From an uncultured Pelagibacteraceae bacterium (GTDB lineage: Bacteria > Pseudomonadota > Alphaproteobacteria > Pelagibacterales > Pelagibacteraceae), in NCBI GenBank assembly GCA_902632315.1, contig CACPCD010000002.1, positions 51,282 to 115,281 on the forward strand: a stretch of 64,000 nt of DNA, read 5' to 3'. Shown here piece by piece: positions 21,917 to 24,631 of the stretch (its first letter is position 1; every line of letters begins with the position of its first letter). Made by a program: the position numbers and the translations under genes. Under the pieces are notes generated by a model. The model had not been told where the DNA came from. It saw only the letters and a program-made list of their open reading frames with translations, and searched no databases.

Positions 21917-22969
21917 TTAATAATTAAGATTTAAAGCAGCTCCAACTGCTGGTATTTGTTTTTTAGAGCCAAGATCAGATATCAACCTATCGTAACGACC
22001 ACCATTACAACAATTAATAATTTTTGAATTGTATTTGATATCTATTTTGAAAACCATTCCTGTATAATATTCTAATTGTCTACCAAAAGCTGTTGAGAAA
22101 ACTACATTCAGTTTGGAAATCTTATTTTTTGAAATAGGAAAATATTTTTGATCAACAATAAGATTAATTTTATTCTTCTTGAAAAATTTATTCAATTCAT
22201 AAGCAGCTTTGCTTATTGGACATTTAATTCTTAAAAATTCTTTGATAACTTTTGAAACATTTCTTCCCTTGCTTGCTCTTCTTGGGTCTTTAATCTTTTT
22301 ATCAAACCTTTCTAAAATTTCTTTGATTGTTCTACCTGCAACAATTGATGATTGATCGTGTTTTAACATTTTTAAATAACGTCTCTTATCAACTTCGACA
22401 ATAGTTGGGTCTACATCAGAATTTGTTTCTAATCTTTTTAATAAATCACTAAAATAGTCTTCTCGCCAAAAATGTCTTGTAAGTCTTAATTTCCACCTTT
22501 TTGGTATGTCTAATTTAGATATTAGGAGATTAAAAATCTCCACATTACCAATCGTTAGAGTGCCTATTGAATATTTTAGAACTTTAAGTGATTTTAGTGA
22601 TGTATTTATTATTTCTTTATCGTCATTTTTTTCATCTTTTGATCCTATAATCTCAAAACCAACTTGATTTCGGATTATAGAATCTTTTTTATTTTGAGAT
22701 TTTCTATAAGCCTGTCCACTATAAAAAATTTTTTCTTTTCCTTTCAAATTTTTTTCTAAATATCTTAAACATGAAGCAATTGTAAGATCGGGTCTCAAAC
22801 ATAATTCATTACCTGTCTGATCTATAAATGAAAAAATAAATTTTCTAAAACTTTCACCAGATCGTTGAACAATATGATTTGTTTCAATTACTGAAGGTAA
22901 TTCAATATATTTAAATCCCTTAGACTTTACAGATCTAAGAACTTTATCAGATAAGTTTTTTGATTTCAT
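21917..22969 (-). CDS. hisZ: ATP phosphoribosyltransferase regulatory subunit
   Basis: Class II aaRS-like fold (LCLRPDLTIASCLRYL; CCNGGRYDRLI); directly after hisS and before short hisG. Confidence 0.88.
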   Translation of the reverse strand: MKSKNLSDKVLRSVKSKGFKYIELPSVIETNHIVQRSGESFRKFIFSFIDQTGNELCLRPDLTIASCLRYLEKNLKGKEKIFYSGQAYRKSQNKKDSIIRNQVGFEIIGSKDEKNDDKEIINTSLKSLKVLKYSIGTLTIGNVEIFNLLISKLDIPKRWKLRLTRHFWREDYFSDLLKRLETNSDVDPTIVEVDKRRYLKMLKHDQSSIVAGRTIKEILERFDKKIKDPRRASKGRNVSKVIKEFLRIKCPISKAAYELNKFFKKNKINLIVDQKYFPISKNKISKLNVVFSTAFGRQLEYYTGMVFKIDIKYNSKIINCCNGGRYDRLISDLGSKKQIPAVGAALNLNY

Positions 22970-24341
22970 TTATTAAATTTGATTTAGGAATTGTTTGGCT
23001 ATTTTCACCCTTAACACCTTTAAGATTTTTAATAGTTACAGTGTTATCTTTAATTTCATTTTCTCCACAAATGATGGCAACTGATAATTCACGTTTATTT
23101 GCTAGCTCCAGCTGCTTTCCTAAATTTTTTTTGGTACTTAAAAATACCTCAGCGTTTATATTATTTTCTCTTAATAAATCGACTATCTCATAATAGTTCT
23201 TCAAAAATTTTTTATCCATTACACATACTAAAACTGGTTTTTGATCCTTTACTTTAATTTGATCCAGTTGCATTAATGCAAATAATAATCGATCAACCCC
23301 AAAACTAATTCCTGTCCCCGGAACATCAACCCCCCTAAATCTTGAAATAAGTTTAGCGTAGGCTCCTCCAGAGCATACACTTCCAATATCAACTGCTTTG
23401 CCTTTATTATTCATAATTTTAAAATTTAAGTTAGTTTCTACAATAAAATCAGAGTAATAAGCTAATCCTCTTACAATTGTGAAATTAGTCTTAACTTGCT
23501 TTAAATTAGATCCATAGCCCAGCATCTCAAAAACATCCTCGAGTTCTTTTATTCCTTCTTGGGATAGTGAGTTTTTTAAAGTTTGTTTAAGTTCTTTTAA
23601 ATCTTTTATTTTTAAAAAATTTAATATTTGTGTTACTTGATCATTACTTAAATCAGCTCCCTTGGTGATAGCACCACTCTGATCCTTTCTTTCTTTTTTA
23701 AGTAGCTCTTCAACTCCTTTTAAACCAAATCCTGGTTTATCAAGCTTATCTATCGCTCGAATGACTTTAATTTTTTTTTCTTCGGGTATATTTAAGTCAT
23801 CAATTAAACCTTGAACTATTTTTCTATTACTTACATTAATTATAAATTGATCTCTATTTAGACCACAATCTAAAAGTGTACTTGATATTAAATTACAAAG
23901 TTCAGCATTTGCTTGTGCAGAATTAACATTTCCAACAATGTCAAAATCAGCTTGCATAAATTCTCTATAACGGCCATTTCCAGCTTTCTCGTTTCTAAAT
24001 ACATTTTGAATTTGATATCTTTTAAAAATTGATGGAAGTTCTTGATTTTTTTGAGCATAAAATCTTGCAAGTGGGCTTGAAAGATCATAACGAAGGGTAA
24101 TATTTTTTTCTCCGTCTTCAAATGAGAATACATCAGACATAGGATTAGCATCATCTTCTGCCAGAAAAGATCCTATATTTTCACTAATTTCAAACGAAGG
24201 AGTTTCAAGAGCTTCTGCTCCAAATTTAATAAAATTTTTCTCAATAGCTGTTAAAAGCTTTTTCTTAAGAAGAACTTTTTTTCCCCATCGATCTTCAAAT
24301 CCTGAAGGTAATCCAGGAACTAATTTATTTTCTTTATTCAT
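22947..24341 (-). CDS. hisS: Histidyl-tRNA synthetase
   Basis: LRYDLSSPLARFYA; VFRNEKAGNGRYREFMQADFDIVG; RGLAYYSDFIVE. Start placed at 24341 because the longer ORF start (24374) lies inside tRNA-His. Confidence 0.93.
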   Translation of the reverse strand: MNKENKLVPGLPSGFEDRWGKKVLLKKKLLTAIEKNFIKFGAEALETPSFEISENIGSFLAEDDANPMSDVFSFEDGEKNITLRYDLSSPLARFYAQKNQELPSIFKRYQIQNVFRNEKAGNGRYREFMQADFDIVGNVNSAQANAELCNLISSTLLDCGLNRDQFIINVSNRKIVQGLIDDLNIPEEKKIKVIRAIDKLDKPGFGLKGVEELLKKERKDQSGAITKGADLSNDQVTQILNFLKIKDLKELKQTLKNSLSQEGIKELEDVFEMLGYGSNLKQVKTNFTIVRGLAYYSDFIVETNLNFKIMNNKGKAVDIGSVCSGGAYAKLISRFRGVDVPGTGISFGVDRLLFALMQLDQIKVKDQKPVLVCVMDKKFLKNYYEIVDLLRENNINAEVFLSTKKNLGKQLELANKRELSVAIICGENEIKDNTVTIKNLKGVKGENSQTIPKSNLINEIKKLI

Positions 24342-24346
24342 TTTTT

Positions 24347-24421
24347 TGGTACCCGGGCTGAGAATCGAACTCAAACTTAAAGTTCCACAAACTTTCGTGC
24401 TAACCGTTACACCACCCAGGC
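24347..24421 (-). tRNA. tRNA-His(GTG)
   Basis: Cloverleaf GCCTGGG-TG-GTGTAACGGTTAGCAC-G-AAAGT/TTGTGGA/ACTTT-AAGT-TTGAG/TTCGATT/CTCAG-CCCGGGT-A-CCA. Confidence 0.93.
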
Positions 24422-24471: not shown

Positions 24472-24516
24472 AAATAGCCTACAGGCTATGGAAACAGATT
24501 TTGTGAAATCTGTTAG
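24472..24516. other. Two tandem perfect hairpins in intergenic DNA
   Basis: ATAGCCT-AC-AGGCTAT (24474-24489), AACAGATTT-TGTG-AAATCTGTT (24493-24514). Confidence 0.5.
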
Positions 24517-24592
24517 TAATTGCATTAATTGTTAAATTTATAATCATGGGGGTCTTTTTAATCAAAAATCTAAATTATTCAACCCATAAAAG

Positions 24593-24631
24593 AAAAGGAC
24601 GTCTTTTAATCTATTAAAAAAACGTCCTTTT
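24593..24631. terminator. Probable terminator downstream of cspA
   Basis: Inverted repeat AAAAGGACGT (24593-24602) / ACGTCCTTTT (24622-24631). Confidence 0.7.

Follow-up and report, generated by a model that had tools for sequence, protein, structure and literature searches.

A Putative Histidine Leader Peptide Ahead of a Predicted tRNA-His–hisS–hisZ–hisG Operon in Pelagibacteraceae

Introduction

In the genome of an uncultured Pelagibacteraceae bacterium, the gene for tRNA-His ends only a few nucleotides before the start codon of hisS, the gene for histidyl-tRNA synthetase (HisRS), and the histidine biosynthesis genes hisZ and hisG follow directly. This raises the question of whether the tRNA, its synthetase and histidine synthesis are expressed from one transcript, and whether that expression responds to the charging of the tRNA. 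SAR11 bacteria possess few classical regulators. A preliminary description of the stretch of 64,000 nt that we analyse here (the window) had proposed a shared transcript, an almost leaderless hisS mRNA and a feedback circuit in which HisRS binds its own tRNA. We compare the locus with its relatives and suggest a different arrangement, namely that tRNA-His, hisS, hisZ and hisG form one Pelagibacteraceae operon headed by a His leader-peptide control element. We assign this reading a probability of roughly 0.6. The locus is a candidate for a compact, charging-sensitive control point that two families share, in a group that ranks among the most abundant bacteria of the ocean. If the reading is true, a tRNA gene sits inside the regulated unit. 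The idea attached to a tRNA gene beside its synthetase would then take the form of a concrete, testable switch.

Conservation of the tRNA-His–hisS Junction

The features of the locus are given in Table 1. The sequence and spacing of tRNA-His, the run of five adenines and the hisS ATG, as first described, are confirmed by direct reading and by ARAGORN, and the tRNA reaches 58.2 bits against the Rfam tRNA model. Its base −1 is T. The ATG at 24341 opens an ORF of 464 codons and is the right hisS start because no other start codon occurs before the conserved LPSGFED motif. The reading frame extends upstream into tRNA-His (TTG at 24374). A start inside the tRNA was nevertheless rejected, as it is not conserved and the spacer differs among relatives by non-multiples of three. 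A Shine-Dalgarno (SD) site hidden in the 3' end of tRNA-His was rejected as well, since such a site is not kept between tRNA bodies and SD sites in the window hardly exceed background. Further downstream, hisZ overlaps hisS by 23 nt.

Table 1. Features of the locus, listed in the direction of the minus strand; positions refer to the window.
Feature	Position	Strand	Basis and remarks
Intrinsic terminator of upstream cspA-like gene, stem AAAGGACG/CGTCCTTT, TTTTCTTTT	24588..24631	-	direct reading; alignment-conserved
Putative promoter P1 of leader ORF, TTGAAT...TAAAAA	24554..24582	-	consensus match; ~8-14 nt before ATG
Leader ORF MIINLTINAITNRFHKICFHSL (stop), 22 codons, His at 15 and 20	24479..24547	-	His-codon conservation
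Hairpin ATAGCC-TGTA-GGCTAT, tail TTATTTAT	24474..24489	-	starts inside last His codon
Candidate promoter P2, AT-rich block TATAATATAAT...AATATAAAA	24422..24468	-	conservation
tRNA-His(GUG)	24347..24421	-	encoded CCA, G1:U72, A73, no G-1
AAAAA spacer, CCA to hisS ATG	24342..24346	-	direct reading; 4-6 nt in 144/147 relatives
hisS, histidyl-tRNA synthetase, 464 aa	22947..24341	-	TIGR00442 332.7 bits, cut-off 286.75 (NCBIfam)
hisZ, ATP phosphoribosyltransferase regulatory subunit, HisRS paralogue	21917..22969	-	NF008953 397.4 bits, cut-off 384
hisG, short form, 228 aa	21228..21914	-	TIGR00070 175.3 bits

A first sample comprised 80 Pelagibacteraceae loci from named genomes, and all 79 of these that have upstream DNA show the junction. 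With an order-level sample and its upstream stretches included, the junction is found in every sampled Pelagibacteraceae genus, at HisRS identities down to ~44%, and in 147 of 147 Pelagibacteraceae loci with a recognisable tRNA. The spacer measures 4 nt in 110 of these loci, 5 nt in 29, 6 nt in five and 28-29 nt in three. At one locus outside the 147, L129 (G108), the sequence before hisS resembles a tRNA but is strongly altered, and the gap is wider. No tRNA-His precedes hisS in any of 20 sister-family loci or in 40 other alphaproteobacterial loci, and tight linkage as a general alphaproteobacterial trait was rejected on these grounds. According to the preliminary description, a missing junction in close relatives would have spoken against its proposal; the junction is present family-wide and absent only outside the family, so that this objection does not apply. 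Hence, the linkage either dates to the stem of the family or was lost elsewhere. Within Pelagibacteraceae, the tight junction is conserved beyond chance.

A Leader ORF With Histidine Codons

Upstream of tRNA-His, just past the cspA terminator, lies a short ORF that the first description missed. A leader with His codons is present at this position in 147 of 148 Pelagibacteraceae loci, the sole exception (L115) keeping the last His codon, and in 20 of 20 loci of the sister family, where it directly precedes hisS. The leaders carry one to six His codons, the one in the window just two. Pelagibacteraceae leaders end, for instance, in THRHHFHAGCTLAI, SHSHRMHAKLLLGL or VHFHFHAG before the stop codon, and sister-family leaders read, for example, MFKFKHHHYHI or MIVFTHHHIHI. 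Searches of 20 genomes found the motif, His codons with the hairpin described below, as a single copy at this locus only in 17 and gave no match in the other three. We set the criterion of at least two His among the last 14 residues once the data had been seen, and 7.4% of shuffles for Pelagibacteraceae and 25% for the sister family reach it. The argument therefore draws on the share of loci with such a leader, on stricter thresholds and on the behaviour of the codons. At least three His in the last 14 residues are found in 55 of 148 Pelagibacteraceae and 20 of 20 sister-family leaders, compared with 1.1% and 4% of the respective shuffles. Among 64 distinct main-type leaders, which are mutually related and do not represent 64 independent events, His15 is kept in 63 (CAT in 34, CAC in 29) amid variable neighbouring residues, while His20, which overlaps the hairpin, is kept in all 64 and is always CAT. 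The synonymous exchange of CAT and CAC and the conservation of the frame form a coding signature, as expected of a leader rich in codons for the amino acid under regulation. Taken together, the His codons of the leader most probably sense the charging of tRNA-His.

The His codons are closely tied to a hairpin. With position counted in nucleotides from the initial base of the last His codon, 137 of 147 Pelagibacteraceae loci have a hairpin of 6 bp or more that starts at +1 to +3, whereas random positions in these regions gave none. Some of the other ten loci have their last in-frame His codon beyond the hairpin start. The arms take several forms (ATAGCC/GGCTAT, GCTGGC/GCTAGC, GCAAGC/GCTTGC, GCTAAGC/GCTTAGC). 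In all 20 sister-family loci, a hairpin of 8 bp or more starts exactly 9 nt past the same reference base; here, a 9-bp hairpin follows the leader stop, and both sides of several pairs have changed (T-A to C-G, A-T to G-C). The leader of the window folds better than shuffles (z −3.3), and its stop codon falls in the loop region of the hairpin. An Rfam search of the window returned tRNAs only, with neither His_leader (RF00514) nor a T-box at gathering score.

A TTGAAT/TTGCAT/TTGACT element, part of the putative promoter P1 in the window, is conserved upstream of the leader ATG in most relatives. Transcription might also bypass the leader by way of a possible second promoter, P2, in the conserved TATAAA-like block that lies 3' of the hairpin and 5' of the tRNA. 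The sister family (L151-L170) has a conserved AACNACCCC(C/T) motif between the leader hairpin and hisS, and several of its loci show a second inverted repeat, GTATC..GATAC, after the leader hairpin.

From Leader to Message

The genes that follow the leader, tRNA-His, hisS, hisZ and hisG, concern the amino acid that would be sensed, as in an attenuator. Because the junction survives changes of both the tRNA body and HisRS, the spacer stays at 4-6 nt and promoter-like blocks lie upstream, tRNA-His and hisS are very likely co-transcribed, so that the shared transcript proposed in the preliminary description gains support from the comparison. In the operon that we propose, the level of charged tRNA-His would set where the ribosome stands on the His codons of the leader, and this position would decide whether the hairpin forms and hence how much transcription proceeds into tRNA-His-hisS-hisZ-hisG. 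The tRNA-His gene would thus belong to an operon controlled by its own charging. The link between charging and expression suspected earlier is retained in this form, and the conserved His-codon leader with its hairpin explains it better than the circuit first suggested.

How the hairpin would act is less clear, and the odds that control operates through termination and readthrough are about even. Many Pelagibacteraceae loci have a weak U-tract 3' of the hairpin, part of the sister family has a better one, and alignment folding found no conserved antiterminator or alternative stem in either family. Intrinsic termination is therefore no more than a candidate mechanism; a single-hairpin variant of an attenuator is possible. 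Moreover, some leaders have their stop codon past the hairpin, which a moving ribosome would then melt, so that the effect could be of either sign. The weak U-tracts of Pelagibacteraceae and the missing antiterminator would also suit a leader that works without intrinsic termination, in which ribosome stalling at the His codons keeps off Rho or an RNase or alters mRNA stability. The tight placement and structural conservation of the hairpin and the U-rich tails of many loci speak against this reading, which we consider the strongest of the alternatives though still rather unlikely.

If tRNA-His and hisS are co-transcribed, the 3' end of the tRNA can be freed only by an endonucleolytic cut or by degradation of the message. 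RNase P would cut the 5' end of tRNA-His, and an endonuclease, probably of the RNase E type, would cut the AU-rich junction 3' of the CCA, given that hisS starts 5 nt after the CCA. RNase E/G is encoded in ten of ten complete genomes, and the SAR11 tRNAs inspected encode their CCA. RNase Z was rejected as the tRNA 3' processing enzyme because its models gave weak matches below the cut-off in the same number of complete genomes (10/10). Once the tRNA is excised, the hisS mRNA would be almost leaderless, an outcome about as likely as not. The full combination, a bacterial tRNA gene under a leader-peptide switch that reads its own charging, with one transcript giving tRNA-His, HisRS and HisZG and with excision yielding a nearly leaderless hisS mRNA, is put forward tentatively and falls somewhat short of an even prospect.

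Tight tRNA Junctions and Genome Streamlining

The close spacing might also result from streamlining alone: tRNA-His would be transcribed from its own P2, hisS would merely lie behind it because SAR11 genomes have hardly any intergenic DNA, and the leader would govern no more than a minor readthrough from P1. Of 30 tRNAs in each of two complete SAR11 genomes, 9 and 11 are followed within 16 nt by the ATG of a likely gene (the His case of G012, whose tRNA ARAGORN misses, was added by hand), compared with 0 of 30 in a relative with a genome of 3.4 Mb. The genes behind such junctions include secE and a trigger-factor-like gene. In the complete genomes G012 and G008 (loci L171-L200 and L241-L270), about one third of the tRNA genes end 1-16 nt before a reading frame. 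An SD-like 4-mer occurs ahead of 6 of the 56 genes of the window, compared with 3 for the background, values that are approximate as the first ATG was taken as the start; these counts suggest that initiation in the window is mostly SD-independent. Since tight junctions are common and SD sites rare, neither requires an explanation specific to hisS. The leaderless hisS message that the preliminary description derived from the lack of an SD site hence stays plausible but loses its special standing, as most window genes lack such a site. Streamlining is further favoured by the TATAAA-like block conserved just before tRNA-His and by similar hexamers before several other SAR11 tRNAs. It leaves unexplained, however, why the His codons and the hairpin are deeply conserved and confined to one locus, and we regard it as unlikely on its own.

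In mitochondria, tRNAs abut the next reading frame and punctuate the transcript, and their excision could give nearly leaderless mRNAs. The tRNA-His–hisS pair shows the same layout, a tRNA that ends a few nucleotides from a reading frame, and a genome-wide tRNA punctuation in SAR11 is possible, judging from gene spacing. The SAR11 case differs from the mitochondrial one in that the genome is bacterial, the CCA is encoded, only about one third of the tRNAs are affected and the processing is predicted. SAR11 may lend itself to the study of messages that are bounded by tRNAs and translated independently of SD sites.

Replacement of HisRS Behind a Retained tRNA

In threonyl-tRNA synthetase autoregulation of the E. 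coli thrS type, the synthetase binds a tRNA-like leader and blocks ribosome binding. By analogy, HisRS might bind the tRNA-His part of the precursor and block its processing or the translation of hisS. The hisS start codon does follow a real tRNA-His at a distance of 5 nt, so that a bound enzyme could shield the junction. However, we see no regulatory tRNA mimic, nor is one required, and the junction tRNA is apparently the sole tRNA-His in G012 (two of its 32 tRNAs were not fully read). The same tight junction precedes unrelated genes, and a leader-peptide sensor already accounts for control by charging. Furthermore, an identical tRNA-His sequence precedes HisRS proteins of about 50% identity or less. 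The comparative data give no support to the binding of HisRS to its own tRNA in the leader, as first suggested, and we consider such autoregulation very improbable. A hisS promoter inside the tRNA gene, separate from tRNA transcription, is hardly credible, as nothing in its favour was found: initiation 0-5 nt before the ATG would equally yield a leaderless message, but the junction persists through tRNA bodies down to ~40% identity with no fixed promoter sequence kept, and a promoter scan shows no minus-strand site there.

The history of hisS is well visible in genus g1, where hisZ is monophyletic and hisS is split into several lineages. The hisS genes of G093 and G083 group with those of other genera (support 100/100), and the tRNA-His of both is of the same type as in G022 and G127, whose HisRS lineages differ. 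According to these trees, HisRS is replaced in place while the tRNA-His–hisS junction is retained. Co-transfer of tRNA-His and HisRS as a single cassette was rejected because identical tRNA-His sequences precede three HisRS lineages. Within this one genus, in-place xenologous replacement of hisS is seen for G022, G053, G093, G083, G127 and G106 (L310-L321), and hisZ and hisG retain the genus signal where hisS was replaced. The HisRS of the window has RNEKAGNGRYREF as its motif-2 loop, in which Gly occupies the expected position, matching a tRNA-His with A73 and no G-1. A study on tRNA-His/HisRS codivergence describes this tRNA type with its matching HisRS as a derived state of alphaproteobacteria that includes SAR11, and the passages found in it mention neither a tRNA-His–hisS linkage nor a leader (PMC3937112).

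Relation to Known Leaders

The hisL attenuator of enteric bacteria consists of a short ORF with His codons beside one or more RNA hairpins, placed upstream of the histidine genes. The SAR11 leader shares with hisL (RF00514) the short His-codon ORF and the hairpin before histidine genes. It differs in that it precedes tRNA-His and hisS-hisZ-hisG, carries few His codons, has one small hairpin with a weak U-tract and finds no Rfam match. In bacilli, a His leader peptide has been predicted upstream of hisS*/hisZ (Naville and Gautheret, 2010; PMC2965389). Its targets likewise belong to the HisRS/HisZ family, but it occurs in Firmicutes and no tRNA gene is described in the unit. A further parallel is the uORFC-8-2 motif of Rhodobacterales, a Cys leader predicted upstream of cysS (PMC8632094), which also places a leader ORF with codons of the cognate amino acid, together with two stems, before an alphaproteobacterial synthetase gene. 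This motif concerns cysteine and has a clear U-run terminator, and no tRNA gene is described in its operon. The main text of a study on structured RNAs of P. ubique mentions neither hisS nor histidine nor leader peptides (PMC2704228). We did not find the SAR11 hisS leader in the open literature, and an earlier mention elsewhere is possible.

Variation Among SAR11 tRNAs

Among 104 distinct SAR11 tRNAs (L001-L150, L171-L200, L241-L270), the D-loop and T-loop covary perfectly: all 84 with GG in the D-loop have U55, and all 20 without GG (A18 G19) have G55. The latter are tRNA-His, tRNA-Phe and tRNA-Val(GAC). This pattern suggests that the G18:U55 contact is replaced by A18:G55 in these tRNAs. All of 31 tRNAs from other alphaproteobacteria are of the GG/U55 type. 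The notion that tRNA-His is unusually variable was rejected, as the neighbouring tRNA-Phe is equally variable. A noncanonical tRNA-His with the D-loop AAUAGUA and the T-loop AGCGUAA or GGCAGAA, which ARAGORN misses and which scores 47-48 bits in Rfam, occurs at G012:C1:1020145-1020215 (L200) and at L037, L040, L097, L100, L101, L106, L112, L113 and L125. The tRNA-His-like sequence of L129 is more altered still, with the D-loop AAAAUUA, the T-loop AGAGUUA and G73, and the adjoining HisRS is fast-evolving, with a branch of 0.85.
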